From contig JACCQO010000036.1 in assembly GCA_015709205.1 (NCBI GenBank), forward strand, positions 1-33,266: a stretch of DNA of 33,266 nucleotides. The letters are read 5' to 3'. Shown here one piece after another: positions 1-15,969 of this stretch. Made by a program: the position numbers and the translations under genes. Source of the stretch: Desulfovibrionaceae bacterium. GTDB taxonomy: Bacteria; Desulfobacterota; Desulfovibrionia; Desulfovibrionales; Desulfovibrionaceae. Below the pieces are notes generated by a model. The model did not search any database. It was not told the DNA's origin and was given only the letters and a program-made list of their open reading frames with translations. Numbering within the stretch: position 1 is the stretch's first letter; each line of letters begins with the position of its first letter.

Positions 1-170
1 CCTCGCGCCCCCCCGACCGGGGGGCCCGGGGGGGATGATCCCCCCCGGCGGGGTCTGGGGCAGAGCCCCAGCAGGGTGTGGGGCGGCGTCCCACCGGGTC
101 CAGGGCGGAGCCCTGGCGGGGGGGGGCGGAGCCCTGGCGGGGGGGGGCGGAGCCCCGGCTTCTTTCCCGG
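1..170. repeat. GC-rich hairpin repeat region at window start
   Basis: No convincing gene lies here. Three structures are visible: a perfect 23-bp palindrome at 26-48 (CCGGGGGGGAT, G, then its complement), a hairpin CTGGGGC-AGA-GCCCCAG at 55-71, and a hairpin CCAGGGC-GGA-GCCCTGG at 100-116. The second half of the last hairpin is then repeated with a 21-bp period (GCGGAGCCCTGG followed by a run of G) at about 106, 127 and 148. Such arrays are common between genes in high-GC deltaproteobacteria and may end transcription of a gene lying upstream of the window; that role is inferred. Confidence 0.75.
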
Positions 171-398: not shown

Positions 399-1028
399 AT
401 GATCGTCAACGACAGGGTTTTTTACAAGCCGTCGCGCCAGGCGCGGCAGTTGGCCGTGCTGGACCTGCTCGCGCGGGGCGCGTCCGGGGCCGGGGCGTGT
501 TTGACGCAGCAGGGGGTGGGCGAGCGCACGGGGTTGTCCGGCGGCATGGTCAACCAATACCTGCGCGAGTTGCAGCGCGACGGGCTGATCGAATTCGAGC
601 CGGTGAACGGCAAAAGTTTCCGCTATCTGCTCACGCCCGAGGGCGAGGCGTTGCGCGAGCGGTTGTTCGCCGACTATTCGGCGGAGACCACGCGCATCTA
701 CACGGCGCTGAAGGATTCGATCCGCGAGAAACTGCGGCCGCTGGCCGAGCGCGGCTTGACGCGCATCGCGGTGTTCGGCGCGTGGGAGACGGGCGAGGTC
801 ACGCTCACGGCGCTGCGCGGCACGCCGTTCGTGGTCGTGGCGGTACTGGACAACGACCGCGCCAAGCACGGCACGCTGTTCCTCGGGCACCCGGTTTCGC
901 CGCCGGAGGTGCTGGCCACGGTGCGGTGCGACGCCGTGGTCATCGCCTCGTTCGGCGGGCGCGAGGCCATCTACAAGCAACTGCGCCCCCTGGCCGAGGC
1001 CCGGGGCATGGAGATCGTGCGCCTATGA
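399..1028 (+). CDS. Winged-helix regulator with Rossmann-like C-terminal domain
   Basis: A protein of 209 residues if started at ATG 399; an in-frame GTG at 387 is the alternative, and neither has a strong ribosome site. Residues about 15-85 form a MarR/Lrp-like winged helix (a recognition segment with GLSGGMVNQYLRELQRDGLI, then the wing FEPVNGKSFRYLLTPEG). Residues about 118-209 look like a nucleotide- or sugar-binding Rossmann domain of the kind found at the front of PglD-type acetyltransferases (AVFGAWETG, then VVAVLDND, then DAVVIASFGG). It opens the glycan operon and overlaps neuB by 4 bp, so it is probably the operon's own regulator, perhaps sensing a sugar nucleotide. DNA target and ligand are unknown. 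Confidence 0.8.
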   Translation: MIVNDRVFYKPSRQARQLAVLDLLARGASGAGACLTQQGVGERTGLSGGMVNQYLRELQRDGLIEFEPVNGKSFRYLLTPEGEALRERLFADYSAETTRIYTALKDSIREKLRPLAERGLTRIAVFGAWETGEVTLTALRGTPFVVVAVLDNDRAKHGTLFLGHPVSPPEVLATVRCDAVVIASFGGREAIYKQLRPLAEARGMEIVRL

Positions 1029-1129
1029 CTCGTGCCCCCATGACTCATGCCCCTATGACTCGTGCCCCTATGACTCGTGTTTCAATGACTCGTGTTTCAA
1101 TGACTCGTGCCCCAGTGACTCTTTCGCCC
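1025..1129 (+). repeat. Seven-copy 15-bp repeat carrying serial start codons
   Basis: Seven consecutive 15-bp units begin at the neuB start codon. Six begin ATGACT and the seventh GTGACT; they encode MTRAP, MTHAP, MTRAP, MTRVS, MTRVS, MTRAP and VTLSP. Every unit therefore supplies a possible in-frame start. The unit length is a multiple of three, so copy-number change alters N-terminal length but not frame. Confidence 0.95.
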
Positions 1130-2287
1130 GCGACGTCTTCGTCCGCGCCCTGCGCGCCCGTGGCGGACCGCGCGTTCGCGCTCGGCTCGGGCCACCTTGT
1201 GGGCCCGGGCGCGCCGTGCCTGCTGGTGGCCGAGATCGGCAACAACCACCAGGGCGACGCGGCCGTGGCCGCGCGCATGGTGGAGGCGGCGGCGCGCGCC
1301 GGGGCGGACGCGGTGAAGTTCCAGAAGCGCGACGCGGCGGCGCTCCTGACGCGGCGCGGGCTGGAGGCGGCGTACGGCGGCGAGCACAGCTTCGGCGCGA
1401 CCTACGGCGAGCACCGCGCGGCGCTGGAGCTTTCCGCGGACGAGCTGGCCGGGCTGGCGCGGCAGGCGCGCTCGCTGGGGCTGGCGTTTTTCGCCTCCTG
1501 CTGGGACATGCCCAGCCTGGAAACCATGCTCGGTGTGGGCATGGACTGCGTAAAGATCGCCTCGGCGGACCTGGTCAACCTGCCCATGCTGCGCCGCGCG
1601 GCCGGGTGCGGGTTGCCGGTGCTTCTGTCCACGGGCATGAGCTCGTGGACGGAGATCGACGCGGCGGTGGAAACGCTCGCGCCGTGCCGGGGACGGCTGG
1701 CGCTCCTGCACTGCAACAGCTCCTACCCGTGCGCGGACGCGGAGGTGGGCTTGCCGGTGATGGCCGAGCTGGCGCGCCGCTACGGGCTGCCCGTGGGCTA
1801 TTCCGGCCACGAGCGCGGCGTGGGGCCGAGCGTGGCGGCGGCGGCGCTGGGCGCGTGCGTGGTGGAGCGGCACTTCACCCTGGACGTGACGCAGCGCGGC
1901 ACGGACCATGCGGCGTCGCTGGACCCGGAGCGGTTCGCGCTGCTGGCCGGTCTGGTGCGCGAAGCCGAGGCCGCCCTGGCCGTGGCCGACAAACGCGTGT
2001 TCCCGGGCGAGACGCGCGCGAAAAGGAAGCTGCGCAAGTCCGTGGTCTATGCGCGGAATCTGGCCGCCGGGCACGTGCTGGCCCCGGCGGACCTGGCGCT
2101 GAAGTGCCCGGGCGACGGAGTTTCCCCGCTGCGCGTGGAGGATCTGCCCGGCCGCGCCCTGACGCGCGCCGTGCGCCGCGACGAGCGGTTCGCGTGGGCC
2201 GACGTGCGCGGCGGCGAGGACGGCGCGGACGCGGAAGGCGGCGTTGCGGGCGACGCCGGGACCGCGATTTCCGGAGACGGCGAATGA
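1025..2287 (+). CDS. neuB: N-acetylneuraminate synthase family protein (NeuB-like nonulosonate synthase)
   Basis: Condenses phosphoenolpyruvate with a six-carbon N-acyl sugar to make a nine-carbon nonulosonic acid (sialic, legionaminic or pseudaminic type); the exact product cannot be told from sequence. The 420 residues comprise a repeat-built N-terminus (1-35), a NeuB TIM barrel with AEIGNNHQGD near residue 69, metal-ligand candidates His262 (GYSGHERG) and His283 (ERHFTLD) spaced 21 residues as in the Neisseria enzyme, the DHAASL segment, and a C-terminal SAF/antifreeze-like domain from about 350 (RKSVVYARNL, CPGDGVSP). The core begins near residue 49, so the first ~45 residues are extra. 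The ATG overlaps the regulator's stop (ATGA). Translation could start at any repeat unit. Confidence 0.92.
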   Translation: MTRAPMTHAPMTRAPMTRVSMTRVSMTRAPVTLSPATSSSAPCAPVADRAFALGSGHLVGPGAPCLLVAEIGNNHQGDAAVAARMVEAAARAGADAVKFQKRDAAALLTRRGLEAAYGGEHSFGATYGEHRAALELSADELAGLARQARSLGLAFFASCWDMPSLETMLGVGMDCVKIASADLVNLPMLRRAAGCGLPVLLSTGMSSWTEIDAAVETLAPCRGRLALLHCNSSYPCADAEVGLPVMAELARRYGLPVGYSGHERGVGPSVAAAALGACVVERHFTLDVTQRGTDHAASLDPERFALLAGLVREAEAALAVADKRVFPGETRAKRKLRKSVVYARNLAAGHVLAPADLALKCPGDGVSPLRVEDLPGRALTRAVRRDERFAWADVRGGEDGADAEGGVAGDAGTAISGDGE

Positions 2288-3258
2288 GCGCGGCGCGTTC
2301 CGCTCGTCCCGGCCCGGCGGGCGCGCCCCTGGTGAGCGTGGTGGTGCCCTCGTTCAATCAGGCGCGCTACCTGCCCACGGCGCTGGATTCGGTGTGGTTC
2401 CAGGATTATCCGAACATCGAGATCGTCATCTGCAACCACGGCTCCACGGACGGGACGGCCGAGGTCGTCGAAGATTTTCTGCGCGACGTCGAGGGCGCGG
2501 AAGAGAGTTTTCTGCTGCGCTACGAGGAGCCGGACGGCGGCGGCCCGCGCAATCCGGCCGACACGACCGACCCGGCGAACGGGGGCCGCTTCGTGCGGCT
2601 GCGGCATCCGCGCTATCCGCGCGTGGCGGGCGCGACGGGCGCTGCGGGCGGCGGGCGCACGGTCAAGGTGCTGCAGTCCGCCGAGAACATCGGCGGCACG
2701 CGCTCCTACAACGAAGGTTTTCGCGCGGCCACGGGCGCATTCTGCACCTACCTGGTGGGCGACGACTACCTGCTGCCCACGGCCGTTTCGCGGCTGGCGG
2801 CCTGCCTGGAGGAAACGGGCGCGGACGTGGCCTATTCCGACCTCTTCGTGGTCGACGACGCGGGCCGCATCCTGCAACGGCTGGAAAAGCCGGACTATTC
2901 CTTCGAAAAATGTTTCGCGGACTGGTTCCACCTCGGGGTTTCGCGGCTCTACCGCCGCGCCCTGCACGAGCGCGCGGGGTGGTACGATCCGGACTACCGC
3001 AACGCCAACGACTACGACATGTTCCTGCGCTTCGCCCTGGCCGGGGCGCGCTTCGCGCACCTGCCGGAGGTGCTCTACTGCACCCGGCGGCACGACCCGG
3101 CGGACCCGGCCGAGCCCGCGTCCTGGCGCGGCGACGGCCACGCCAACCTGCTGCGCGAGTCCGTGCGCTGCGCCCTGCGCGCCCGCGCCGCGATCGCGGG
3201 GAAGGATACGGAGCCCCCCGCAATGAACGAGGAGAAGGACAAATGCGCATCTGCGTGA
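2284..3258 (+). CDS. Family 2 glycosyltransferase
   Basis: A 324-residue GT-A enzyme expected to transfer a sugar from a nucleotide donor. It shows the opening VSVVVPSFNQARYLPTALDSV at about residues 17-36, IVICNHGSTDGT, and the acidic metal site GDDY in place of DxD; later a typical ANDYDMFLRF segment precedes the C-terminal third. An insertion of about 45 Gly/Pro/Arg-rich residues (roughly 75-120) separates the usual N-terminal motifs from VLQSAENIGGTRSYNEGF. There is no membrane segment, so it should act in the cytoplasm. ATGA overlap with neuB argues for translational coupling. The acceptor is unknown. Confidence 0.88.
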   Translation: MSAARSARPGPAGAPLVSVVVPSFNQARYLPTALDSVWFQDYPNIEIVICNHGSTDGTAEVVEDFLRDVEGAEESFLLRYEEPDGGGPRNPADTTDPANGGRFVRLRHPRYPRVAGATGAAGGGRTVKVLQSAENIGGTRSYNEGFRAATGAFCTYLVGDDYLLPTAVSRLAACLEETGADVAYSDLFVVDDAGRILQRLEKPDYSFEKCFADWFHLGVSRLYRRALHERAGWYDPDYRNANDYDMFLRFALAGARFAHLPEVLYCTRRHDPADPAEPASWRGDGHANLLRESVRCALRARAAIAGKDTEPPAMNEEKDKCASA

Positions 3259-4481
3259 TCGGGCTGGGCAAGCTCGGGCTCTGCACGGCCGCGTGCCTGG
3301 CGCGCGGCGGGTTCGAGGTCGCGGGCGTGGATGCCGACGCGGCGCACGTGGCGGCCATCGCGCGCGGCGAGACGCCGTTCGCCGAAACCGGGCTGGCCGA
3401 CCTGCTGGCCGAGGTGCGCGGGCGGCTGACCGTGACCACGGACACGGCCGCGGCCGTGGCGGCCAGCGCCATGACCTTCATCATCGTGCCCACGCCCTCG
3501 CTGCCGCACGGCGGGTTCGACAACGCGCACGTGCTCGCGGTGCTCGAAGCCCTGGCCCCGGCCCTGGCCGCGCACGAGGACCGCCACGTGGTCAACCTGG
3601 TCTCCACGGTCATGCCCGGTTCGTGCGACGGCGTTTTCGTGCCGTTCCTGGAGCGCGCCACGGGCAAACGCTGCGGCGCGGACTTCGGCTTCGCCTACAA
3701 CCCGGAATTCATCGCCATCGGCAGCGTGATCCGCGACTTCCTGAATCCGGACCTGGTGCTCGTGGGCCAGAGCGACGCGGCCACGGGCGCGGCGCTGGAG
3801 GCGGTCTACGGCGCGGTGTGCGACAACGCGCCGCACGTGGCGCGCACCGCGCTGGTCAACGCGGAGATCGCCAAGCTGTCCATCAACTGCTTCTGCACCA
3901 TGAAGATCAGCTTCGCGAACACGTTGGGCCAGGTCTGCGAGGCCGTGACCGGGGCCGACGCGCGCGAGGTGGCCGGGATCATCGGCCACGACACGCGCAT
4001 CGGGCACAAGTACGTCCAGCCCGGCCTGGGCTTCGGCGGGCCGTGCTTTCCGCGCGACAACGAGGCCTTCATCCGCTTCGCCGCGGACCACGGGCGCGAC
4101 GCCGAGCTGCAGCGCGCCGTGGTGGCCGTGAACGAGCGCCAGCCCGGCCGCGTGGCCGAGCGCATCGTGGCGGCGGCTTTTCGCGCGGGTAGGCGCGTAG
4201 CCCTACTCGGGCTGTCCTACAAGCCCTTCACCTCCCTTACGGAGCGCTCCCAGGCCCTGGACGTGGCCGTGCACCTGGCCACGCGCCACCCGGAGCTCTC
4301 CATCACGGCCTTCGACCCCATGGCGCGGTCCAACGGGCTGTGGCGGCTGTCGGAGTCGCTGCAGGAGTGCGTGCGCGGGGCCAACGTGGCCGCCGTGCTC
4401 ACGCCCTGGCCCGAGTTCCGCGAGCCGGGCTGGCGCGCGCTCCTGGCCGAGGGTGCGGAAGTGCTGGATTTCTGGGGGTAG
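3243..4481 (+). CDS. UDP-sugar 6-dehydrogenase (UDP-glucose/UDP-ManNAc dehydrogenase family)
   Basis: Predicted to oxidise C6 of a UDP-hexose to a uronic acid with two NAD molecules. The 412 residues start with a Rossmann GxGxxG (GLGKLGLCTAACLARGG), followed by VPTPS, the STVMPGSCD segment, FAYNPEFIAIGSVIRDF, and the catalytic cysteine in GLGFGGPCFPRDN. The third-domain motif reads GLSYKPFTSLTERSQALDV, where family members usually have a form of GLAYKPxTDDxRES, so substrate choice may differ from standard UDP-glucose dehydrogenase. The start lies inside the glycosyltransferase frame (16-bp overlap) behind GAGAAGGA, a good ribosome site. Confidence 0.88.
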   Translation: MRICVIGLGKLGLCTAACLARGGFEVAGVDADAAHVAAIARGETPFAETGLADLLAEVRGRLTVTTDTAAAVAASAMTFIIVPTPSLPHGGFDNAHVLAVLEALAPALAAHEDRHVVNLVSTVMPGSCDGVFVPFLERATGKRCGADFGFAYNPEFIAIGSVIRDFLNPDLVLVGQSDAATGAALEAVYGAVCDNAPHVARTALVNAEIAKLSINCFCTMKISFANTLGQVCEAVTGADAREVAGIIGHDTRIGHKYVQPGLGFGGPCFPRDNEAFIRFAADHGRDAELQRAVVAVNERQPGRVAERIVAAAFRAGRRVALLGLSYKPFTSLTERSQALDVAVHLATRHPELSITAFDPMARSNGLWRLSESLQECVRGANVAAVLTPWPEFREPGWRALLAEGAEVLDFWG

Positions 4482-4487
4482 CGACGG

Positions 4488-5453
4488 ATGACGAAGACGT
4501 TGCGCGACGAGGCGGCCCGGGCCGCAGCCTTTTCGGGCGAGCCTTTTTCGGCCGGAGATTCTCCGGCCGGGCCCTTTCCGCCCGCCCCCTGCCCGGCGCG
4601 CGCCCTGTGGGCGTGCCGCACGGAGCTGGCGCAGTTGCGGCCGCGCATCGAGGCCCTGCACGCGGCCGTGAATTTCGCCAACGACTTCAGCCCGTTCCAG
4701 TGGGCGCAGCTCACGGCCCTGGTGCTCGACTGGCGGCCGGACCTGATCCTGGAGCTGGGCCGCAAGTGGGGCAACTCCACCTGCGCCTTCACCGAGGCCG
4801 CCGCGTGGCTGGCCCATGGAAACGGGGCCGACGGCCCGGCCCCCTGCCGCGTGGCCAGCGTGTGTCGCGACCCGGAATGGGAGGAGGTCACGCTGCCGAA
4901 GCTGCGCGCGGCCGGACTGGCGGACGCGGACTGGCTGTCGCGCCTCACGGCGCACCGCGCGGACATCACCCGGTTCGACTTCGCGCCCGCGCTCGCCGGG
5001 GCGCGCCGCGTGCTCGTGTTCTGGGACGCGCACGGCTGGGAGGTGGCGGCCACGGTGCTCGGCGGGCTCATGCCCCGGCTGGCGGGCCGTGAACACCTGG
5101 TGGCCCTGCACGATCTTTCGGACCAGCGCTACGGCCCCGAGGCCAACCTGGACTACGCGGGCCGGGGCCTGTGGGCCGGGCGCGACATGGACGGCGCGCG
5201 GCTGCTGCTCGGCCACGTGGACACGGCCGTGCCCCAGGCCGTGTGCGCCCTGGATTTCTGCACGCGCAACCGCATCGGCCTGGAAAGCGCCGAACACGAG
5301 CTGCGCACGCGCCTGGACGCGGCCCAGGCCGCCGAGCTGGCCCGCCTGCTCGGCCCGCTCTTCTCGCTCCAGGCGCACTGGTTCCACTTTTCGCTCAACC
5401 ACGCGCCGGGCGCGCCGACCTTTCCGCGCGACCCGGCCAGGGAGGAAGCATGA
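4488..5453 (+). CDS. SAM-dependent methyltransferase-like protein
   Basis: A 321-residue protein. After a Pro/Ala-rich front of about 45 residues it shows a class I methyltransferase-like fold: LILELGRKWGNSTCAF (motif I) near residues 86-101, VASVCRDPEWEEV as the second acidic strand, ADITRF, then RVLVFWDAHGWEV and LVALHDLSD. The pattern recalls CmcI-type proteins and other surface-glycan cluster methyltransferases. No substrate can be assigned. It starts 6 bp after the dehydrogenase and its TGA overlaps the next ATG. It could be a non-methylating relative of the fold. Confidence 0.65.
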   Translation: MTKTLRDEAARAAAFSGEPFSAGDSPAGPFPPAPCPARALWACRTELAQLRPRIEALHAAVNFANDFSPFQWAQLTALVLDWRPDLILELGRKWGNSTCAFTEAAAWLAHGNGADGPAPCRVASVCRDPEWEEVTLPKLRAAGLADADWLSRLTAHRADITRFDFAPALAGARRVLVFWDAHGWEVAATVLGGLMPRLAGREHLVALHDLSDQRYGPEANLDYAGRGLWAGRDMDGARLLLGHVDTAVPQAVCALDFCTRNRIGLESAEHELRTRLDAAQAAELARLLGPLFSLQAHWFHFSLNHAPGAPTFPRDPAREEA

Positions 5454-6451
5454 CGACCGTCAGGCCCGGCCACCGGGACATCACCGTGTACGTGGGACTG
5501 CGCCCCTTCGAGGGCGAATGGATCGAGAAGAACGAGGCCGTGCTCGCCGGGCTGGCCTGGCAGGGCGTGGAGGGCCTCAAGGTCAAGTTCGTGTGCTGGC
5601 CCAGCGAATCGTCCACGGCCGTGTACGCGGCCGGACACGGCTACGAGGCCCTGGTGGTGCCCTGGTACCGGCAGTACCTGTTCCCGGGCCCGCAGCGCAG
5701 CTTCAAGGCCATGTTCGAGACCGCGCTCATGGACTGCGACACCGAAATCTTCGTCTACATCAACGGCGACATCGTGCTCGGCCCGGGCGTGCTCGGCTGG
5801 ATCCAGGAGCACGTGGAGCACTCCACGCTCTATTCCCTGCCGCGCCACAACTGGGACTACGACGGCCCCCTGCGCTCCCCGGCGGATTTCGAGCGCGCCC
5901 TGGAGCGCGCCGTGCCCGAGGAGTGGACCGCCGTGGACCTCTTCGCCCTGCGCGCCACCGAGGGACGCCAGCAGCTCATCCCCCTGCCGCCCTTCCTGCT
6001 CACGGCCGGGTCCATGGATTCCTGGCTCGTGGCCCGCACGGGCGAACTGGGCTGGCGGCGCGTGCTCGTGCCGCCGGACTCCTTCCGCATGCTGCACGTC
6101 GAGCACCCCTTCAGCCACCCGCTCAAGCCCGGCGCGGCCCCGGAAAAGGTCGCCAAGTGGGCCTTCAACTGCGGCATCTACGAGACCGCGACCCAGGGAA
6201 TGGACGTGCGCTGGCGCATGGACACGTCCCTGGCGGTGTTCGAGGGCGCGGAGCGCTACAAGTTCAAGAACGGGCTGCCCACGCGGGCCTACACGGCGTG
6301 CGAGGACATCTACGAGTGCGGCGAGCGCACCTTTGCCTGCGGCGCGGGCGAGGACGCCGCGTGCGTGGAGCAGTCCGGCGCGTGCCGCGTGGTGCGCGAA
6401 TGCGGACCGGAGCAGGGCGGAAAAAACGCGGGGGAGGACGGCCATGACTGA
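5450..6451 (+). CDS. Glycosyltransferase-like protein with cysteine-rich C-terminus
   Basis: A 333-residue protein that resembles GT-A glycosyltransferases: ITVYVGLRPF at the front, a middle segment AMFETALMDCDTEIFVYINGDIVLGPGVL with a single acidic site (NGDIV) where DxD is expected, and an SMDSWLVARTG acceptor-side segment. No close named family was recognised. The last ~50 residues hold six cysteines (YTACEDIYEC, TFACGAG, AACVEQSGAC, RECG), which suggests metal binding or disulfides. ATG overlaps the preceding TGA by 4 bp; its own end overlaps the next gene by 8 bp. Confidence 0.65.
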   Translation: MTTVRPGHRDITVYVGLRPFEGEWIEKNEAVLAGLAWQGVEGLKVKFVCWPSESSTAVYAAGHGYEALVVPWYRQYLFPGPQRSFKAMFETALMDCDTEIFVYINGDIVLGPGVLGWIQEHVEHSTLYSLPRHNWDYDGPLRSPADFERALERAVPEEWTAVDLFALRATEGRQQLIPLPPFLLTAGSMDSWLVARTGELGWRRVLVPPDSFRMLHVEHPFSHPLKPGAAPEKVAKWAFNCGIYETATQGMDVRWRMDTSLAVFEGAERYKFKNGLPTRAYTACEDIYECGERTFACGAGEDAACVEQSGACRVVRECGPEQGGKNAGEDGHD

Positions 6452-7430
6452 GTGGGCGCGACCGGACACGGGCTGCGCGTGGGGCGATGCGGAAATGGAG
6501 CGCCGCACCCGCGCCGGGACTGACGGAGCCGGAAACGGCGGTGCGGGCGCGGACGTGCTCGCGGCCAACCTCGCCAAGTGGTCCACCCTGCCCTCGGGCG
6601 GGCCGGACCAGGCGCGCGTGGAGGACCTCCTGGCCCTTTCCGATGCGGACTTCGCGGAATTCTGGCGCGCGGGCTCGGCCAAGTGGACCGCGGAGCGCGG
6701 CTGGGAGTACGAGCGGTTCGGCGCCCGCTTCGCCGGGCTGCGCGTGCTGGAGATCGGCTCGGGCCTTGGGCACGACGGGCTGGCCCTGGCTCCGCGCGTG
6801 CGCAACTGGACGTTTTGCGACATATTGGCGCAGAACCTGACATTGGTGCGCAGGGCGGCGCGGCTGCTCGGGGTGCGCAACGTGTCCTTCCAGCAGTTGC
6901 ACGATCCCCTGGCGCACGACTTCCGGGGCACCTTCGGCGCGTTCTGGGCCCACGGCGTGCTGCACCACCTGCCCTTTGCCCTGGCCCGGCGCGAAATGGC
7001 CAACATCGACCGATTCCTGGCCGTGGGCGCGGTGGCCGGGGTGCTCATGTACCCGCGCGAGCGCTGGGAGGCGGCCGGACGGCCGCCCTTCGGGGAATTC
7101 GGCGCGCGCACGGACGGCCCGGGCACGCCCTGGGCCGAATGGTACGACGAGGACAAGATCCTGGCCCTGTTCGGCCCGGCCTGGGCCCTGCGCGACACCG
7201 TGCACTGGGGCTCGGCCGACAGCCGGTTCGTGACCTTCGAACTGGTCAAGGAGCGCGAAACCCCGGACGAGCAGCCCGGCGACGGTGCGGAATACGCCGG
7301 GGAATGCGCCGGGGGCGGCTCGTGCTGCGAAACCGGCGGCTCCTGCTGCGAGACCGGCGCGAGCTGCTGCGGCAGCGGCGGGTCCCGCTGCGGCGGGAGC
7401 GGCAAGGCGGGCCCGGGAGGCGGCGCATGA
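6444..7430 (+). CDS. Class I SAM-dependent methyltransferase with Cys-Cys repeat tail
   Basis: A 328-residue protein. SAM-binding motif I is VLEIGSGLGHDGLAL near residue 101, followed by the second strand FCDILAQNL and FGAFWAHGVLHHLP as motif IV. A signature region YPRERWEAAGRPPFGEF, TDGPGTPWAEWYD closes the fold. The same signature recurs in the gene at 11208, so the two are paralogues. After residue ~275 the fold is replaced by a low-complexity tail with four heptads of the GGSCCET type. Likely to methylate a sugar in the glycan pathway; acceptor unknown. Start ATG 6444 follows GGGGGAGGA. Confidence 0.8.
   Translation: MTEWARPDTGCAWGDAEMERRTRAGTDGAGNGGAGADVLAANLAKWSTLPSGGPDQARVEDLLALSDADFAEFWRAGSAKWTAERGWEYERFGARFAGLRVLEIGSGLGHDGLALAPRVRNWTFCDILAQNLTLVRRAARLLGVRNVSFQQLHDPLAHDFRGTFGAFWAHGVLHHLPFALARREMANIDRFLAVGAVAGVLMYPRERWEAAGRPPFGEFGARTDGPGTPWAEWYDEDKILALFGPAWALRDTVHWGSADSRFVTFELVKERETPDEQPGDGAEYAGECAGGGSCCETGGSCCETGASCCGSGGSRCGGSGKAGPGGGA
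7314..7397 (+). repeat. Four 21-bp repeats coding for Cys-Cys heptads
   Basis: Four in-frame 21-bp units encode GGSCCET, GGSCCET, GASCCGS and GGSRCGG at the C-terminus of the methyltransferase. The cysteine pairs are kept in three of the four units even though codons vary, so selection on the protein is possible, but recent slippage would look similar. Confidence 0.92.
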
Positions 7431-8698: not shown

Positions 8699-8735
8699 TC
8701 GCGCCGCGCGCGGATGCGTGGCCCGGCGCGCCCCG

Positions 8736-8757
8736 GGTCCGGGCCCGGGCCCGAACC
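8736..8757. repeat. Near-perfect palindrome between operon genes
   Basis: GGTCCGGGCCC followed directly by GGGCCCGAACC: the arms match at 10 of 11 positions and the odd pair is a G-U in RNA. It lies in the only gap over 40 bp in the operon (8699-8776), with no T-run after it. It may be an RNA stability or attenuation element rather than a full terminator. Confidence 0.6.
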
Positions 8758-8776
8758 GGATGCGGAGAAAACGCCA

Positions 8777-9700
8777 ATGGAAGAGCACATGGACGGCAAC
8801 CATCCCGGCGCAGGCGGCCCGCCCTCCGGCCCCCCCTCCGCACGGCCCGATGCGGCGGCCCCCGCGCCCGTCCGCTTCTTCGTCACCGGCACGGGCCGCT
8901 GCGGCACCATGCTCCTGGCGCGCGCCCTGGCCCTGGCCGAGCGCACGTCCTGCGCGCACGAACGGTCCATGAAGTACGCCAAGCTCGCGCCCGCCTACAG
9001 CCGCGCCGACCTGGGCCGCCTCTACGAGGAGATCGACGACGTCATCGCGCCGGAGTCGGCCCGCGCTTTGGCGCGCGGCGAGCACTGGGGCGAGGTCTCC
9101 GGGCTGCTCTGGCCCGTGCTGCCCGAGCTGGCCTGCCGCTACGGGGACGCGCGCTTCGTGCTCGTGGTCCGCGCGCCCGAGGCGTTCGCGGCCTCGGCCG
9201 TGGCGCGCGGGTTCTTCGACCCGGCCCACCCCCACGCCCTGGAGCACGTGCGCCCGCTGCAGGGCACGGCCATGGCCGAACGCTGGGCCGAGGCCGAGCC
9301 CGTGGAAAAATGCCTGTGGTACTGGGCCGAGGTCAACGGCTTCGTGCTGCGCGCCTTTGCCGCGCTGGAGCCGGAGCTGCGCCGCGTGGTGCGGCTGGAG
9401 AATTTGTCCATGGAGCTCATCGAACGCCTCTTCGCCTTTCTGGGCCTTGGGGGCTTCGCGGCGCGCCGCGCGGAGCTGGCCGCGCTGCTGGCCCGGCGCG
9501 TGAACGCCACGCCCGGGGCCCACGGCGCGCACGGCGCCGCGCCGCCGGACGAGGTGAACCCCTGGTCCGTGCCGCGCACCGTGGGCCCCATGGACGCGTG
9601 GCCGGAACAATGGCTTGCGGCCTTCGACCGCTGGGCCGCGCCCCTGGCGCGCTACCTCTATCCGGACCGCTACCCGGAACCCGCCGGGGAGAGGCGCTGA
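8777..9700 (+). CDS. Sulfotransferase family protein
   Basis: A 307-residue protein. The phosphosulfate-binding loop is visible as FFVTGTGRCGTMLLARAL around residues 34-51, and a 3-prime-phosphate site as FVLVVRAPEAFAASAVARGFF. CLWYWAEVN and LENLSMELIERLFAFLGL are also typical of the fold. It is expected to move sulfate from PAPS to a hydroxyl on the glycan, in the cytoplasm, since no signal peptide or membrane segment is seen. ATG 8777 was chosen because GGAGA lies 8 nt upstream; an ATG at 8714 has no such site and would add low-complexity residues. The last codon overlaps the next start by 1 bp. Confidence 0.8.
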   Translation: MEEHMDGNHPGAGGPPSGPPSARPDAAAPAPVRFFVTGTGRCGTMLLARALALAERTSCAHERSMKYAKLAPAYSRADLGRLYEEIDDVIAPESARALARGEHWGEVSGLLWPVLPELACRYGDARFVLVVRAPEAFAASAVARGFFDPAHPHALEHVRPLQGTAMAERWAEAEPVEKCLWYWAEVNGFVLRAFAALEPELRRVVRLENLSMELIERLFAFLGLGGFAARRAELAALLARRVNATPGAHGAHGAAPPDEVNPWSVPRTVGPMDAWPEQWLAAFDRWAAPLARYLYPDRYPEPAGERR

Positions 9701-11169
9701 TGGCCCGCGTGCTCCTGATCCGGCCCTGGCGGCACGGGGACGCGGGCGTGGCCGAGCACGACCTGGCCAACCAGTGGCGCAACGGCCCCTATTCCCTGCT
9801 GCTGCTCGCCGCCATCCTGCGCCGCGCCGGGCACGAGGCACGCGTGGCCGACCTGGAACGCGAACTGGTGCGCGCGCGCGGCGACGTGGCGGCCTGCCTG
9901 GCCGGGCTGCGCGCCGAGGTGGCGCGCTTCGCGCCGCATCTCGCGGGCGTCGGCTTTTTTTCCGTGCACTACGAGCAGGCCGGGAGCATAGTGGCTGCCG
10001 TGCGCGAGGCCGCGCGCGCGACAAGGATGCCCGCGCCGCTCCTGGTGGCCGGGGGCATCCACGCCACCGTGGCCACGGAGTCCTGCCTGGCTCCGCCGCC
10101 CCGTGGCCTCGGCTTCGACTGCGCCTGCGTGGGCGAGGCCGACGTGAGCCTGGCGCGGCTGGCCGACGGCGCGGCCCCCGCCACGGTCCCGGGCGTGGCC
10201 GTGCCCGGTACGACCGGTACGACCGGAGCGACCGGTACGACCGGTACGGCCGGTACGACCGGTGCGGCCGGTGCGGCGGCCCCGCCCCCCGCCCCGGCCG
10301 AGCGCGTGGCGCACCTGGACGACCTGCCGCGCGCGGACTGGGCGCTCTGCGACCACGGCTTCTATTCCGCGCCCACGGCCGCGCGCGTGAAGTTCCGCAC
10401 CACGCGCTCGCTGGACCTGATCATGGGCCGGGGCTGCGGTTTCCGTTGCGCCTTCTGCGCCTACGGCGCGCTGTCCAGGCCGCGCTACCATTCGGCGGAC
10501 TACGTGCTCGACGAGATCGCGGCCCTGGCGCAATTCACCACGGGCGTGTACTTTCTGGACTCCACCCTGGGCACCAACCGCCGCCTGCTGGAGGCGGTCT
10601 GCGCGGGAATGCTGGCGCGCGGCCTGCACAAGCGCGTGGAATGGTACGCCAACATGCGCTCGGACCAGGTGGACGAGGAACTTCTGCGCCTGATGTGGGC
10701 GGCCGGGTGCCGCTACCTGTTCTACGGGTTCGAATCCGGCAGCCAGCGCGCCCTGGAGCGCATGGCCAAGCGCAACACCGTGGAGAACAACGTGCGCGCG
10801 GCGGAGCTGCACAACCGGCTGCGGTTCCCGTACAACGCCTCGGTGCTCGTCAACTACCCGGGCGACACCGAGGAGGACCTGGCGGCCACGCGCCGCTTTC
10901 TGGAGGCCGCGCGGCCGCCCAGCGTGGGCGTGAACTGGTACGTGCCCCTGCCCGGGTCCACGGACTACGCGCACCTGCTCGCGGCCGGGCGCATCGACCC
11001 GCACGACCCGGCCGAATGGCGGCGCGTGGGCGAGGTCAACGGCGCGACCTTCTACGCCGACGCGGACGAGGCCGCCTACCGCGCGCGCGTGGCCGAGCTG
11101 GAGGACTACGCCTACCGCGTCCTGCCGGAGATCACCAACCCGCTCTGGCGTGGCGCGCAACCGGCCTGA
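9700..11169 (+). CDS. B12-binding domain radical SAM protein
   Basis: A 489-residue protein. The N-terminal ~180 residues resemble a cobalamin-binding domain (LLIRPWRHG, GPYSLLLLAAILRRAGHEARVADLE, HLAGVGFFSVHY, VAGGIHATV, CVGEAD). A Gly-Thr-Thr repeat linker (residues ~170-194) leads to the radical SAM core with Cys246, Cys250 and Cys253 (CGFRCAFC), the iron-sulfur site, then YFLDSTLGTN, YANMRSD, YLFYGFESGS and VNYPGDTEED. Such enzymes methylate unreactive carbons or rearrange substrates; here a sugar or sugar-nucleotide substrate is likely from context. The start overlaps the preceding stop as TGATG. Confidence 0.85.
   Translation: MARVLLIRPWRHGDAGVAEHDLANQWRNGPYSLLLLAAILRRAGHEARVADLERELVRARGDVAACLAGLRAEVARFAPHLAGVGFFSVHYEQAGSIVAAVREAARATRMPAPLLVAGGIHATVATESCLAPPPRGLGFDCACVGEADVSLARLADGAAPATVPGVAVPGTTGTTGATGTTGTAGTTGAAGAAAPPPAPAERVAHLDDLPRADWALCDHGFYSAPTAARVKFRTTRSLDLIMGRGCGFRCAFCAYGALSRPRYHSADYVLDEIAALAQFTTGVYFLDSTLGTNRRLLEAVCAGMLARGLHKRVEWYANMRSDQVDEELLRLMWAAGCRYLFYGFESGSQRALERMAKRNTVENNVRAAELHNRLRFPYNASVLVNYPGDTEEDLAATRRFLEAARPPSVGVNWYVPLPGSTDYAHLLAAGRIDPHDPAEWRRVGEVNGATFYADADEAAYRARVAELEDYAYRVLPEITNPLWRGAQPA
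10207..10278 (+). repeat. Eight-copy 9-bp repeat encoding Gly-Thr-Thr
   Basis: Eight tandem units of the form GGTACGACC, with A/G changes toward the end (GGTGCGGCC), code for GTT, GTT, GAT, GTT, GTA, GTT, GAA and GAA between the cobalamin-binding and radical SAM domains. The same unit family reappears at 14740-14784. Confidence 0.95.
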
Positions 11170-11207
11170 AACAACCCCGAACCCGTCCGGAAAAACCCGA
11201 AACCACC

Positions 11208-12113
11208 ATGAAACAGCATCCCGGCATTTCCGGCGCCCCCGGCACCACCCCGTCGGCACCGCCCGTTCCCGCGCCCGAAAGCGACATCGACGCCGCCGTG
11301 TTCGACCAGTGGCTCGCGCGCCTGGCGCGCAAGTGGTCCGTGGTTCCGGCCGACGGCAAGGACCGCGTGTCCACGGCGCGCTTCGCCGAGCTGGACGACG
11401 CCGAACTCCTGCGCGTGTGGACCGAGATCCGCGACGCCGAGGTCGCGGGCGAGCGGTTCGCGGTGCGCGGCTGGTACCACGCGCTCTACGGCCCGGCCCT
11501 GGCCGGGGCCCGCGTGCTGGACCTGGGTTCGGGCCTCGGGCTGGACGGCCTGTCCTTCGCCGGGCTCGGCGCGCGCGTGACCTTTGCGGACATCGTGCCC
11601 GCCAACCTGGAGCTGCTGCGCCGCCTGGCGCGGCTCATGGGGGTGGAGGCCGACTTCCTGCCCATCGAAAACGCGGACTCCTTCGCCCTGGCCGCGCCGG
11701 GGTTCGACGCGGTCTGGTGCCAGGGCTCGATGATCAACGCGCCGCTTCCGGTGGCGCGCTTCGAGGCCGCCCGCATCCTGCCCCTGCTGGCCGAGGGGGC
11801 GCGCTGGATCGAGCTGGCCTACCCGCGCGCGCGCTGGGAGGCGGCGGGCCGCCCGCCCGCCGAAACCTGGGGCGAGTCCACCGACGGCCCGGGCACGCCG
11901 TGGGTGGAATGGTACGACCTGGACAAGATGCGCGCGCGCCTGGCGCCCGCGACCTTCGACGTGGTCCTGCACTTCGATTTCTGGCAGAACGACTTCAACT
12001 GGTTCGATCTCAAGCTGCGGCCCCGGCGGGAGTGGGCCGGACACGACGGTCCAGCGGCGCACGGCGGCTCCGGTGGGCCCGGCGAGCCGACCGGGCAGGG
12101 AGGCGCATCATGA
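11208..12113 (+). CDS. Class I SAM-dependent methyltransferase, paralogue of the 6444 gene
   Basis: A 301-residue protein with SAM motif I VLDLGSGLGLDGLSFA near residue 104, ARVTFADIVPANLELLRRLARLMGV, and FDAVWCQGSMINAPLP as motif IV. It ends in the signature YPRARWEAAGRPPAETWG, TDGPGTPWVEWYDLDKM that is nearly the same in the 6444 gene, and WQNDFNWFDLKL. It lacks the cysteine tail; its C-terminus is Gly/His-rich instead. The ATG follows a 38-nt A/C-rich, G-poor gap without a clear ribosome site, so this start may depend on coupling or an unstructured leader. Substrate unknown. Confidence 0.8.
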   Translation: MKQHPGISGAPGTTPSAPPVPAPESDIDAAVFDQWLARLARKWSVVPADGKDRVSTARFAELDDAELLRVWTEIRDAEVAGERFAVRGWYHALYGPALAGARVLDLGSGLGLDGLSFAGLGARVTFADIVPANLELLRRLARLMGVEADFLPIENADSFALAAPGFDAVWCQGSMINAPLPVARFEAARILPLLAEGARWIELAYPRARWEAAGRPPAETWGESTDGPGTPWVEWYDLDKMRARLAPATFDVVLHFDFWQNDFNWFDLKLRPRREWAGHDGPAAHGGSGGPGEPTGQGGAS

Positions 12114-13543
12114 CCGTGCAGCGCTCCGGAGCCGAGGAATTCGCCTTTCTGGCCGCGTTGGTGCGGCTGCTCGGCGCGCGCCGCGTGCTGGAGGTGGGCA
12201 CCTCCACGGGCGACGGCGCGCTGACGCTGGCGCGCTCGCTCGCGCGCATCCGCTCGCCCCGGCCGGTCGGCCCGCGTGGCGGCCAGCGCAGCGGGACGCG
12301 CGGCGGCGCGCCCCTGCCGCCGCCCGTGGAGGTCGTCACCGTGGACATCGCGGACCTGCGCGAGCCCGCGTGCCGCAACCATCCCGGCCCGGTGCCCATC
12401 CGCTTCCTCAAGGGCGATTCCGGCGAGGTGCTCGCGCGCCTGGCCGCGCGCGGCGAACGGTTCGACCTCGTGTTCATCGACGGCGGCCACCACTTCGCCA
12501 CCGTGCGCCGCGACTGGGAGCTGGCGCGCTCCCTGACCGACGCGGTGGTCCTGCACGACGTCCTGCAGTTCAACGGCGTCTCGCGCGTGGTTTCGGCCAT
12601 CCGCAAGGACCCGGACTGGGACGTGACCGTGCTCTCCTACCCCGGCACCACCCTGCTCGACCCGGCCTCGGGCTCGCACTTCTTTTCCATGCGCTGCCCC
12701 GGCCTGGCCCTGGCCACGCGCAAGCCGCCGCGCCGCGCGCCCGCCGCGCCGCCCGCGCCGCCCCTGTGGGAACGGCCCACCGACGCCTCGCGCAAGGCCC
12801 TCAAGCGCCGCACCGCGCGCTTCGACCGCTGGCACGGCCGCGCGGACCGCGCCGCGGACATGTCCATGCAGGACTGGCGCATGCTCTTCCACATGTTCTG
12901 GAACATGGCCCCGCGGGCCGTGGTGCACCTGGGCCACGCGGGCACCGGGGCGAGTCTGCTCTTTCTCAACTACGCGCGCGCCAAGAAGGCCCGCGTGACC
13001 CTGGCCGACCCCTCGGGCAATTTCTGGGAGCGCAAGCTCCCGCTGATGGCCCCTTCGCTCGTGCCCCAGATCCCGCGCGCGCGCGTGCTCGTGGGGCCCG
13101 AGGCCTGCGCCGCGCTGCTGGAGGACGCCCAGGACGAAGCGGCCTGGGCGGAACGTGCGCCGGGCACGACGCCGGGCGGGCCCGCGCTCTACTGGATCGA
13201 CGAATACACGGACGAAGCGGCCTACGAAATCGCCCGCGCGCTGGCGCGCCGCCTGCGGCCCGGCGACGCCCTGTGCCTGCGCAACTGTTCGCCCGACGAC
13301 GGCCGCCCGGACGCGGTGCGCGCCTTCGGGGCCATCTGCACCTGCCGGGCGGCCGCGCCGTTCTTCAAGTGGCTGGCGGAGCAGCCCGTGCACGCGCGGC
13401 TGGCCAACCCCCAGGCCGTGTTCGGCGACTACGTCAACGCCGGGCACTGGCTCATGGTCTGCCCGCGCGCGGCAGCGAACACGGAGACCGAGGCCGCGGA
13501 AAAACCCTCGAAAAGGAACGTTTCGAAGAAGGAGTCCGAATGA
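12110..13543 (+). CDS. Two-domain methyltransferase-like protein
   Basis: A 477-residue protein. Residues 1-~200 are a class I methyltransferase of the MTase_24 type: VLEVGTSTGDGALTLARSL (motif I), VVTVDIADL, FDLVFIDGGHHFATVRRDWELA, VVLHDVLQFNGVSRVV. A Pro/Ala-rich linker follows. Residues ~255-460 may be a second Rossmann-like domain (AVVHLGHAGTGASLLFLNYARAKKARVTLADPSGN; ALYWIDEYTDEAAYEIA; LRPGDALCLRNCS), reading as a diverged copy of the same fold. Whether both halves bind SAM is not clear. ATGA overlaps at both ends. The C-terminal ~25 residues are charged and Lys/Glu-rich. Confidence 0.7.
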   Translation: MTVQRSGAEEFAFLAALVRLLGARRVLEVGTSTGDGALTLARSLARIRSPRPVGPRGGQRSGTRGGAPLPPPVEVVTVDIADLREPACRNHPGPVPIRFLKGDSGEVLARLAARGERFDLVFIDGGHHFATVRRDWELARSLTDAVVLHDVLQFNGVSRVVSAIRKDPDWDVTVLSYPGTTLLDPASGSHFFSMRCPGLALATRKPPRRAPAAPPAPPLWERPTDASRKALKRRTARFDRWHGRADRAADMSMQDWRMLFHMFWNMAPRAVVHLGHAGTGASLLFLNYARAKKARVTLADPSGNFWERKLPLMAPSLVPQIPRARVLVGPEACAALLEDAQDEAAWAERAPGTTPGGPALYWIDEYTDEAAYEIARALARRLRPGDALCLRNCSPDDGRPDAVRAFGAICTCRAAAPFFKWLAEQPVHARLANPQAVFGDYVNAGHWLMVCPRAAANTETEAAEKPSKRNVSKKESE

Positions 13544-14730
13544 GGGCCGTGAGCGGCTCCTCGGACTATCCGGCCGCCATGATGGGCGACCTCGACGAAC
13601 TGGTCCAGGACGCCCACGAAATCGCTCATGAAATCGCGCGTGCGATCGCCGACCGAGGCACGCCGGAGAACGGAGGCGGCGCTCCCGCCGCCCCGGCCAA
13701 CGTCTACGTCTACGGCGCGCTCGGGCCCGCATGGCTCGTGGGCCGCGCCCTGGACGAGCACCCGCGCCTGGCCGTGCGCGGCTACATCGACCGCGACCGC
13801 GACCGGCTCCTGGAAATGGCCGCCCTGGGCCGCCACGTGCCCGCGCCCCTGCTGCATCCGGACGAGTTGCCGCCCGGTCCGACAGACGGTTCCCCGAACG
13901 GTTCGCCGAGCGGGCCGACGCCCGCCGACGCCGTGGTCGTGGCCACGGCCCCGGCGCACCACCGCGACGTGGCCGCCACCCTGGCCCGCCGCCTGCCGCG
14001 CGCGCGCATCTTCTTCCTGCACCGCTCGCCCTGCGCCGCTCCCGCGCGCGCGCCCAGACCACCCCTGCTGCTGACCACACCCGGCCGCTGCGGCACGCTC
14101 TGGCTGGCCCACCTGCTCGGCCACCTGCTGCGCCCCCTCGGCTACCGCTCCGTGCGCCTGCCGCCCAGCGGCGCGCCGGACGACCCCGACGCCCTGGCCG
14201 CCGCGCTCGTGCCCGGGCGCTGGTGCGCCGGGCACGTGCCGCCGTCCCCGGCGCTCGTCGCCGCCGCGACCGCCGAACGGTCCACGGCCACGCTGCGCGC
14301 CGTGCACCTCTTCCGCGACCCGCGCGACATGCAGGTCTCGGCCGCCTTCTACAACCACGGCGCGTTCCGCTACGATCCGCACTATCTTGAACTGAAGCTC
14401 GGCCAGATCGAGGCCTGGAAGGACGTGCCCGGCGTGCTGCACCTGCGCTACGAGAAATTGCGCGCCGACACGGCCGGAACGCTGGCGCGCGTGCTCGCGC
14501 ACGCGGGGATCGACGGCGCGGATGCGGCTCCGCAGCGGGTGCGCGCCGTGTGTCGCCTGTTCACCTTCGAGCGCCTTTCCGGCGGCCGCTCCCCGGGCCA
14601 GGAGGACGGCGCGGCGCACTACCGCAAGGGCGTGTGCGGCGACTGGAAGAACCGCTATTCCGCCGCCGAGGCCCGGAACGCGGCCGAACGCTTCGGCGCG
14701 CGCCTCGCGACCCTGGGCTACGAGCCCTGA
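13540..14730 (+). CDS. PAPS-dependent sulfotransferase with N-terminal Rossmann-like domain
   Basis: A 396-residue fusion. Residues ~175-396 are a classic cytosolic-type sulfotransferase: LLTTPGRCGTLWLAHLL (5-prime-phosphosulfate loop, ~178), HLFRDPRDMQVSAAFYNHG (3-prime-phosphate site, ~255) and HYRKGVCGDWKNRYS (~360), the RKGxxGDWKN hallmark of PAPS users. Residues ~52-165 form a Rossmann-like domain (VYVYGALGPAWLVGRAL, VRGYIDRDRDRL, ADAVVVATAPAHHRDV) of the same general kind as in the operon's regulator. The ATG follows AAGGAG with good spacing and overlaps the preceding TGA. It converges with the TylF-like gene, their 3-prime ends overlapping by 13 bp. Confidence 0.85.
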   Translation: MRAVSGSSDYPAAMMGDLDELVQDAHEIAHEIARAIADRGTPENGGGAPAAPANVYVYGALGPAWLVGRALDEHPRLAVRGYIDRDRDRLLEMAALGRHVPAPLLHPDELPPGPTDGSPNGSPSGPTPADAVVVATAPAHHRDVAATLARRLPRARIFFLHRSPCAAPARAPRPPLLLTTPGRCGTLWLAHLLGHLLRPLGYRSVRLPPSGAPDDPDALAAALVPGRWCAGHVPPSPALVAAATAERSTATLRAVHLFRDPRDMQVSAAFYNHGAFRYDPHYLELKLGQIEAWKDVPGVLHLRYEKLRADTAGTLARVLAHAGIDGADAAPQRVRAVCRLFTFERLSGGRSPGQEDGAAHYRKGVCGDWKNRYSAAEARNAAERFGARLATLGYEP

Positions 14731-15437
14731 GGCGCGCCCGGTGCGACCGGTGCGACCGGTGCGGCCGGTGCGACCGGTGCGGCCTGTGCCGACGATCCGG
14801 CCGCCTCGCCCTTGACGACGTACGCGCGCGGGCTCAGGGCCCAGGGCAGGGCGCGCGGTACATAGCCCGAGCCGCGCAGGAACTCGTCCACCGCATCGGA
14901 CTCGCCCCACTGCGGCGCGCCGTAGTCGTCGAAGGCCACCACCCCGCCCGCGACCACGCGCGGAAAGAACGCGGCCAGGGCCGCGCGCGTGGGGTCGTAG
15001 TTGTCGAAATCCAGATTCAGCAGGGAAATCCGCCAGCCCGGCCGCGCGGCCGCGTACTCGCCCACGGTGCGCGACGCGTCGCCCGGCACGATCTCCACGC
15101 GCCGCTCCAGCCCCTGGGCGCGCGCAATCTCCAGCAGCGACTCCACGCTCGCCGTGCGCGCCACCTCGGGCATGAACGGTTCGTCCCACTCGTGCGTGCG
15201 CTTGGGCTCCGCGCCGAAAAGATCGAAGCCCACCACGCGCCGGTCCGAGCGCGGGGCGAAGATTTCCAGCAGCTTGGCCCAGAACAGCAGCCCGGCCCCC
15301 CGGCACACCCCGCATTCGACCACGTCGCCCGGCAGCTCCACCACGCGGCGGAACAGCTCGTAGCGCGCCAGCAGCTTGGTATGGCGGTCCAGCCCGGCGT
15401 GCAGCGCGAAATCGTTGAACAGCGCCCATTCGTCCAT
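14718..15437 (-). CDS. TylF/macrocin O-methyltransferase-like protein
   Basis: A 239-residue protein starting MDEWALFNDFALHAGLDRHT; the ATG at 15437 is preceded by AGGAGGTGG at ideal spacing, and longer readings are low complexity. Typical TylF features are visible: GDVVECGVCRGAGLLFWAKLL (SAM site), VVGFDLFG, LLNLDFDNYDPTRAAL and GGVVAFDDYGAPQWGESDAVDEFL with the paired aspartates used as metal ligands. Such enzymes methylate sugar hydroxyls with SAM and Mg. Convergent with the operon, it may belong to the same glycan pathway but is separately transcribed. The last ~25 residues are an Ala-Pro-Val repeat encoded by the array at 14740-14784. Confidence 0.85.
   Translation of the reverse strand: MDEWALFNDFALHAGLDRHTKLLARYELFRRVVELPGDVVECGVCRGAGLLFWAKLLEIFAPRSDRRVVGFDLFGAEPKRTHEWDEPFMPEVARTASVESLLEIARAQGLERRVEIVPGDASRTVGEYAAARPGWRISLLNLDFDNYDPTRAALAAFFPRVVAGGVVAFDDYGAPQWGESDAVDEFLRGSGYVPRALPWALSPRAYVVKGEAAGSSAQAAPVAPAAPVAPVAPGAPQGS
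14740..14784 (-). repeat. Five-copy 9-bp repeat encoding Ala-Pro-Val tail
   Basis: Five tandem units of GGTGCGACC or GGTGCGGCC on the plus strand. Read on the minus strand they encode alternating Val-Ala-Pro and Ala-Ala-Pro triplets at the C-terminus of the TylF-like protein. The unit is the same family as the array at 10207-10278, read there on the other strand. Confidence 0.9.
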
Positions 15438-15959: not shown

Positions 15960-15969
15960 CTGCCGGCCA

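Follow-up and report, generated by a model that had tools for sequence, protein, structure and literature searches.

A 33,266-nucleotide contig of a Desulfovibrionaceae bacterium (the window, analysed at full length; contig C28 of a 4.25 Mb genome in 120 contigs) carries at its left end a real operon, and there are good grounds for reading it as one for a nonulosonate glycan. We incline, modestly, to see in this operon an assembly line in the cytoplasm for a short, acidic and decorated glycan containing a non-standard nonulosonate, perhaps a deaminated one resembling 2-keto-3-deoxy-D-glycero-D-galacto-nononic acid (KDN). Its interesting part is a non-canonical, widely conserved NeuB with a regulator of its own, together with a rare core marked by the genes g6 and g8. 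Coding frames were picked by codon-usage scoring (scores 62.8-176.8) and start codons were chosen by hand, giving 13 consecutive genes on the plus strand (g1-g13, 399-14730) and a single convergent gene on the minus strand (g14, 14718-15437). A sequence-only reading of the contig had described thirteen overlapping frames plus a convergent TylF-like gene; the genes are confirmed, and the overlaps, of 1-16 bases, hold at nine of the 12 junctions within g1-g13. The remaining three junctions are gaps of 6, 15 and 38 bases, and with so tight a layout co-transcription of g1-g13 is very likely. The 3' ends of g13 and g14 share 13 bases. The same reading had listed NeuB- and NeuA-like enzymes (g2, g8), a sugar dehydrogenase (g4), several methyltransferases (g7, g11, g12, g14) and a B12 radical S-adenosylmethionine (SAM) enzyme (g10), all of which are upheld by family matches; to this list we add the regulator g1, the family 2 glycosyltransferase (GT2) g3, and g6. 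The operon starts 398 bases from the left contig end, beyond which the sequence is not visible.

g2 (1025-2287) encodes a NeuB-family nonulosonate synthase, its NeuB domain (PF03102) scoring 237.1 bits against a cut-off of 22.1 and its SAF domain 28.5 bits against 21. The best NCBIfam match is the N-acetylneuraminate synthase TIGR03569 (NeuB_NnaB), at 282.3 bits and below the equivalog cut-off of 399.65, and the score with the pseudaminic acid synthase TIGR03586 (PseI), 190.0 bits, likewise lies below its equivalog cut-off of 340.25. NeuBs of the g2 type are present in 88 of the 248 genomes of the order, counted as genomes with a match of at least 432 bits (89 rows, one genome appearing twice; the broken copy in genome G085 excluded), and a gap in the scores from 432 to 357 bits separates them from other NeuBs. 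The gene in front, g1 (399-1028), encodes a MarR-type winged helix followed by a C-terminal Rossmann-like domain that resembles Methyltransf_14 or the N-terminus of NeuD. Among the 30 best-scoring loci, 28 have a g1 homologue directly upstream of the g2-type NeuB, and the other two (G025 and G192, of the same genus) have g3 downstream instead; these 30 loci, like the sets of 25 and 24 neighbourhoods cited below, are non-random and consist mostly of the best-scoring g2-type matches on long contigs. A gene of the AMP-binding acyl-CoA ligase type was found in 15 of 25 g1-g2 neighbourhoods, and an adenosine 5'-phosphosulfate (APS) kinase gene, divergent and within about 3 kb upstream of the pair, in 5 of 24 (confirmed by Pfam in L080). 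In L151, L153, L154, L158 and L080 the APS kinase and the acyl-CoA ligase-type gene are both found upstream of the pair, in divergent orientation. The start of g2 itself is uncertain, falling in a run of in-frame ATGs: a 15-base tandem repeat of 7.1 copies (window 1015-1121) spans the g1/g2 junction and is the source of these ATGs and of a repeated, MTRAP-like NeuB N-terminus, which was not seen in the aligned relatives.

The substrate pocket of these enzymes is altered while nine active-site residues are kept. Pocket residues were mapped by hand on alignments with Neisseria NeuB structures and counted in 31 g2-type proteins (from 29 fetched loci, genome G027 and the window; the G085 copy on contig C34 was left out) and in 13 other NeuBs. 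All 31 keep the nine active-site residues Glu25, Lys53, Gln55, Lys129, Tyr186, Ser213, His215, Glu234 and Asp247. In these residues and in its NeuB and SAF domains g2 is like the NeuB family at large (NmeNeuB, LegI, PseI and the Kdn-9-phosphate synthases), from which it differs, besides the two equivalog scores, in that Thr110 is replaced by Ser, Phe112 by Trp and Asn184 by Ser in all 31 proteins, and that the place of Arg314 is taken by Cys (21 of 31) or Ser (10 of 31). Arg or Lys occurs at this place in none of the 31, so that the mark of NeuBs acting on N-acetylmannosamine (ManNAc) is missing; the 13 other NeuBs have Arg (5), Lys (3), Ser (2), Asp (1) or a gap (2). According to the excerpts of PMC6795526 from which most residue names are taken, Arg314 is the sole SAF-domain residue in the NeuB active site and positions the N-acetyl group of ManNAc, the R314A enzyme being inactive and the R314K enzyme active. 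The changed Arg314 place thus fits a precursor with a different group at C2, for instance a sugar of the mannose type, which would yield a KDN-like acid. A candidate C2-specificity position, Gly in synthases of neuraminic (Neu) and legionaminic (Leg) acid and Phe in those of pseudaminic acid (Pse), is given in the partial text of PMC7371886; at the supposed equivalent, which our own mapping puts at g2 residue 181, all 31 g2-type proteins have Ala, and the 13 others Ala (5), Gly (5), Met, Ser or Tyr (1 each). The Phe288 place is Lys in all 31, an assignment that depends on the alignment, the Asn74 place was not safely alignable, and the SAF domain alone gave chance matches only in the PDB. Given that g2 falls below the cut-offs for both N-acetylneuraminic acid (Neu5Ac) and Pse synthases and that its pocket is changed, the nine-carbon acid of the sequence-only reading is right in kind and may yet be a non-standard one; as judged from these residues, it is probably neither Neu5Ac nor a standard Leg or Pse.

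The second component is the core g3-g4-methyltransferase-g6-g7-g8. It is collinear in G140, a genome of another genus, where a radical SAM gene is followed by g3 (59% identity), g4 (57%), a methyltransferase, g6 (68%), g7 (50%) and g8 (36%). In G136 a GDP-mannose 3,5-epimerase gene precedes g3 (53%), g4 (59%), a methyltransferase and g6 (60%), with g8 about 22 kb beyond g6, where two radical SAM genes and an unmatched one precede it. In G042 the series begins with g1 (39%) and g2 (47%), continues through a glycosyltransferase scoring below threshold, a sulfotransferase, g3 (52%), g4 (49%) and an NAD-dependent epimerase, and ends, after one unmatched gene, with g6 (66%); here g6 stands at a contig end and g8 lies with g12 and three radical SAM genes on another contig, so that linkage of g6 to g8 is not seen in this genome. 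On one contig of G085 there follow one another, in pieces, g2, g3, a gene judged by eye to be an epimerase, g6 and g8. For the core a scatter of genes without order was ruled out by its collinearity in G140 and its position on one contig each in G136 and G085. Gene order in relatives, on which the sequence-only reading had staked its proposal, is accordingly conserved for g3-g4-methyltransferase-g6-g7-g8 in G140 and for g1-g2, g3-g4 and g6 with other genes between them in G042; g9-g13 is not shown as a block, g12 being the one gene of this back half searched across genomes, with homologues in two of 248 (our own and G042). Genes in the fetched loci were called with our own simple predictor, which can miss genes, chiefly in loci of low guanine plus cytosine (GC) content. 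The GC content of the stretches read ranges from 30 to 73%, and g6 still keeps 60-69% identity in G136, G042 and G140 (55-66% in two G085 pieces).

Homologues of g6 were found in 5 of the 248 genomes of the order, our own included, and among 395 genomes of a phylum-wide sample in our own only. g8 with its C-terminal domain is present in 13 of the 248 genomes (G085 in pieces; four further rows match the N-terminal part only), and all five g6 carriers are among them (hypergeometric p 1.7e-7, ignoring kinship). A g2-type NeuB is found in 12 of the 13 g8 carriers (Fisher p 2.5e-5, again ignoring kinship and counting G085 on fragments). The g1-g2 pair of G136 lies at 2.836 Mb, distant from the core at 2.184-2.212 Mb; the window, G042 and (in pieces) G085 therefore hold two modules side by side, the core being joined in these three genomes to the widespread g1-g2 pair. 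The g8 clusters of G156 and G136 (L185, L186) both end near a glutamine-dependent NAD synthase gene, a shared neighbour that hints at one glycan-cluster hotspot.

Both marker proteins of the core were examined as structural models. g6 (5450-6451) belongs to a family without annotation and has no sequence relative in Pfam, NCBIfam or the PDB. Its model (mean predicted local distance difference test score 61.6; good in a large part of residues 1-180 and poor past about residue 240) has as top matches the GT-A enzymes LARGE1, fucosyltransferase WrtF and chondroitin polymerase, the TM-scores of its structural matches being 0.33-0.47, and on this model g6 is predicted to be a GT-A-type glycosyltransferase. 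Its conserved sequence YINGDI, invariant in the aligned homologues, is a candidate metal/nucleotide motif. g8 (7427-8698) matches CTP_transf_3 at 60.1 bits against a cut-off of 22.6 and carries PAR.GS.R, PT.PFR and D.D, which we take to be motifs of CMP-nonulosonate synthetases, as expected of a NeuA/PseF-type cytidylyltransferase; with the PseF equivalog it scores 74.2 bits, below the cut-off of 205.7. The best PDB match of the g8 model is 9t4z, the CMP-Kdn synthetase PpNeuA (E 9.5e-14, 19% identity), presumably, from its prefix Pp, the enzyme of Prymnesium parvum. This is the top fold match of the N-terminal domain; g8 differs from it in being about 170 residues longer at the C-terminus, an extension present in all six aligned relatives and weakly conserved. 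The Kdn synthase of P. parvum uses mannose 6-phosphate, according to the portion of PMC6200933 at hand.

A number of findings weigh against a non-standard acid and against a core devoted to it. Of the 13 other NeuBs, 2 likewise have Ser in place of Arg314 and 5 have Ala at the supposed C2 position, and Ser at the Asn184 place, present in 31 of 31, is what Pse synthases have at position 184 (PMC7371886, in part), so that a Pse-like precursor is possible. G140 holds the core and has no g2-type NeuB, hence the core need not use a g2-type synthase; one of its other NeuBs has Ser at the Arg314 place. Relatives of g8 also occur in clusters where no NeuB is adjacent (G025, G122 and L035, the last being S. 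aerotolerans), and two of the five g6 carriers belong to one genus (g43). For the g6 model nucleotidyltransferases (CMP-KDO synthetase, RmlA) come close behind, with TM-scores somewhat lower than those of the GT-A enzymes and about equal to those of some glycosyltransferases, and for the g8 model a CMP-Neu5Ac synthetase is nearly equal to PpNeuA (E 6.0e-13) with a higher identity of 24%. Finally, our own genome has two strong genes of Epimerase_2, which we take to be the family of NeuC, LegG and WecB, making ManNAc supply possible there; together with the three further NeuB loci that this genome holds besides g2, they also make a standard sugar possible.

Much of this would follow if the operon were an ordinary surface-glycan cluster in which g2 makes Neu5Ac or a Leg- or Pse-type acid from precursors provided elsewhere, the pocket changes being neutral for the substrate class. 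The ranking of NeuB_NnaB as best NCBIfam match of g2, the two Epimerase_2 genes with the three other NeuB loci, and the Pse-like Ser all agree with such a cluster. However, the scores of g2 with NeuB_NnaB and PseI are well under the equivalog cut-offs, the Arg314 place is without Arg or Lys throughout the g2-type proteins, and G042 (95% complete), whose single NeuB is of the g2 type and which has a single g8-like match at 1e-10, gave no Epimerase_2 and no AGE match, PseG, NanE, a Kdn-9-phosphate phosphatase and the mannose 6-phosphate route not having been searched for. We therefore regard a standard sugar as unlikely. As to neuC, which the sequence-only reading had suggested looking for near each copy, G042 gave no Epimerase_2 match and our own genome has its two genes. 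G025 (100% complete) likewise gave no Epimerase_2 match and matches AGE in part, with a score above the cut-off; the other five of the six genomes examined for AGE had none. A broader form of the favoured non-standard acid, in which an order-wide, separately regulated NeuB subfamily makes an acid outside the Neu, Leg and Pse types (with no 2-acetamido precursor; KDN-like or new) and is coupled in a few genomes to a mobile core of GT2, dehydrogenase, g6, g8 and radical SAM enzyme building a sulfated, methylated glycan on a cytoplasmic acceptor, seems to us doubtful as a whole.

For the operon as an assembly line of a decorated glycan the following steps can be proposed. g2 would condense phosphoenolpyruvate with a six-carbon aldose, g8 would turn the product into a CMP-sugar, and g1 may set the level of NeuB, possibly by nucleotide-sugar sensing. 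g4 (3243-4481), a UDP/GDP-sugar 6-dehydrogenase that scores above the TIGR03026 cut-off and has the sequence GFGGPCFP, presumably the catalytic-Cys motif of nucleotide-sugar dehydrogenases, would convert a nucleotide hexose to a uronic acid, and the GT2 enzyme g3 (2284-3258; 52-59% identity in G140, G042 and G136) and the GT-A-type g6 would join the sugars. Sugar modification would fall to the methyltransferases g7 (6444-7430), g11 (11208-12113; a g7 paralogue with 38.8% identity), g12 (12110-13543; an N-terminal Methyltransf_24 domain and a long C-terminal part), the TylF-type O-methyltransferase g14 and perhaps g5, to the B12-binding radical SAM enzyme g10 (9700-11169; CxxxCxxC present), and to the 3'-phosphoadenosine 5'-phosphosulfate (PAPS) sulfotransferases g13 and probably g9. 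g5 (4488-5453) has no Pfam or PDB sequence match and no NCBIfam match above cut-off; by eye it shows a class I methyltransferase-like motif (ELGRKWGNSTC), and its position is occupied by a methyltransferase in G140 and G136. The tail of g7 consists of cysteine-rich repeats (SCCETGG units; a 21-base repeat at window 7314-7392), and its shorter G140 relative lacks this tail. The many methyltransferases, the TylF-type gene and the B12 radical SAM enzyme would also suit a small-molecule (natural product) pathway instead of a cell-surface glycan, but NeuB, the CMP-transferase, the nucleotide-sugar dehydrogenase and the glycosyltransferases dominate the set and no scaffold-building enzyme was seen among the Pfam matches of the window, so that we consider such a pathway highly improbable.

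Two sulfotransferases had been read from the sequence, of which g13 (13540-14730) is firmly one, its Sulfotransfer_1 score being 40.2 bits against a cut-off of 22 and the R-S and RKGxxGDWKN motifs of PAPS sulfotransferases being present behind a Rossmann-like N-terminus (by eye). The other, g9 (8714-9700), is a probable sulfotransferase with two sub-threshold Pfam scores (21.3 against 22.8 bits and 20.2 against 27 bits) and a GTGRCGT loop. An APS kinase is encoded in the same genome. Pfam also confirmed sulfotransferases in the window, the G042 cluster and the G156 g8 cluster, whereas none was found among the seven genes of the G140 cluster or the 16 scanned genes of G136, indicating that sulfation is a recurring add-on outside the core. 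Sulfotransferases are reportedly found within the glycan gene sets of a sulfated capsule cluster of a marine Vibrio (PMC11641403) and of sulfated Halobacterium N-glycans (PMC11980604), as they are here. Radical SAM genes are present in all four well-readable clusters (one each in the window and G140, three in G042, four in G136). Two of them stand shortly ahead of g8 in G136 (L186 5077-9508) and others on both sides of g8 in G042, a position from which they may act on the precursor of the CMP-activated sugar.

The sequence-only reading had noted that epimerase, flippase and polymerase are missing, which is correct for the window, where no protein with at least three predicted membrane spans is encoded; the window is the whole contig, and its upstream side lies out of sight. 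By the same simple hydropathy prediction on predicted genes, no such protein is encoded in the cluster stretches read in G140, G042, G136, G027 and G156, whereas three are encoded at a NeuB locus on contig C6 of our own genome. This locus (L042, L102/L103), which also has His_biosynth (HisF-type) and glutamine amidotransferase genes beside those for the three multi-span membrane proteins, is probably for a second nonulosonate surface glycan. Clusters lacking multi-span proteins fit either an acceptor in the cytoplasm or export by components encoded elsewhere, and a cytoplasmic acceptor is plausible.

Flagellin had been suggested as that acceptor. In this case the glycan would be placed on flagellin or another cytoplasmic protein and the absence of flippase and polymerase would be functional, in keeping with the lack of multi-span proteins in the window and in the five relatives. 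Nonulosonates are frequent in flagellin glycosylation islands. Furthermore, cheV follows g1-g2 in 14 of 24 neighbourhoods, although its start lies 113-579 bases past the end of the g2 alignment and it need not share the transcript. No flagellin was found in the window, whose upstream side is cut by the contig end, or in 21 related cluster loci, and the nine Flagellin_N matches of our own genome are on six other contigs; the five regions fetched around eight of the nine (the match on contig C3 not having been fetched with its flanks) hold no window-type genes. On contig C80 (L095 2661-8898) flagellin, FliD, FliS, a family 4 glycosyltransferase (GT4) and a sub-threshold GT2-like gene follow each other on one strand, a row that favours flagellin glycosylation as such and suggests that the organism may glycosylate flagellin with other enzymes. 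On balance flagellin is a tentative candidate, somewhat more to be doubted than trusted. Islands such as those of PMC5109656 and PMC7874193 are reportedly likewise glycan gene sets for a cytoplasmic acceptor, from which the clusters examined here differ in having no flagellin beside them.

It is quite possible, though we would not rely on it, that the glycan instead reaches lipopolysaccharide or capsule through export by a transporter encoded elsewhere. The G136 core lies among Asn-synthase, GHMP-kinase, CDP-glycerol glycerophosphotransferase and GT4 genes, and g1 weakly resembles the exopolysaccharide-associated MarR regulators (23.6 bits against a cut-off of 88), both of which argue for such a destination; the contrast between no multi-span protein in the cluster stretches and three at the C6 NeuB locus argues against it.

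Among known systems, the KL1 and KL2 capsule loci of Serratia marcescens carry neuA and neuB together, as does the operon, and neuC goes unmentioned in the main text of PMC9000132 as far as it was available. In the same partial source the product of these neuAB loci is mainly KDN beside glucuronic acid, which offers a precedent for a KDN-like acid, and the S. marcescens NeuB differs from g2 in having an extra isomerase/epimerase domain. No description of the present operon was found among the open-licence PMC papers listed for nonulosonates with Desulfovibrio, flagellin, lipopolysaccharide, sulfotransferases or methyltransferases. If the favoured reading of a non-standard acid is true, many genomes of the order would produce a sialic-acid-like sugar along a pathway labelled by annotation as Neu5Ac or Pse synthesis, g6 would represent a further glycosyltransferase family, so far unannotated, and g8 a further family of two-domain CMP-synthetases. 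Granular sludges, including anaerobic ones, contain sulfated and sialylated matter, KDN ranking second in abundance among the nonulosonates of most samples, and few of the sludge genomes examined had sulfotransferase matches (PMC10483923, from the sections seen). An operon combining nonulosonate and sulfotransferase functions is a testable kind of source for such matter.

The GC content of the operon is 73.1%, that of the remaining window 68.8% and that of other stretches of the same genome 66-71%. The genes to its right (CbiQ-like, GAF/HD, HDOD, Fur, catalase, M48 peptidase, Mut7-C, BipA, asparagine synthase, SpoIIE and isocitrate dehydrogenase types) are non-glycan genes, the asparagine synthase being a possible exception. 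GC-rich 21-base repeats at the left contig end (window 43-159) are a possible cause of the assembly break, and between the TylF-type and CbiQ-like genes a 29-base repeat that includes a GCAGCA...TGCTGC inverted repeat occurs four times (window 15845-15960).

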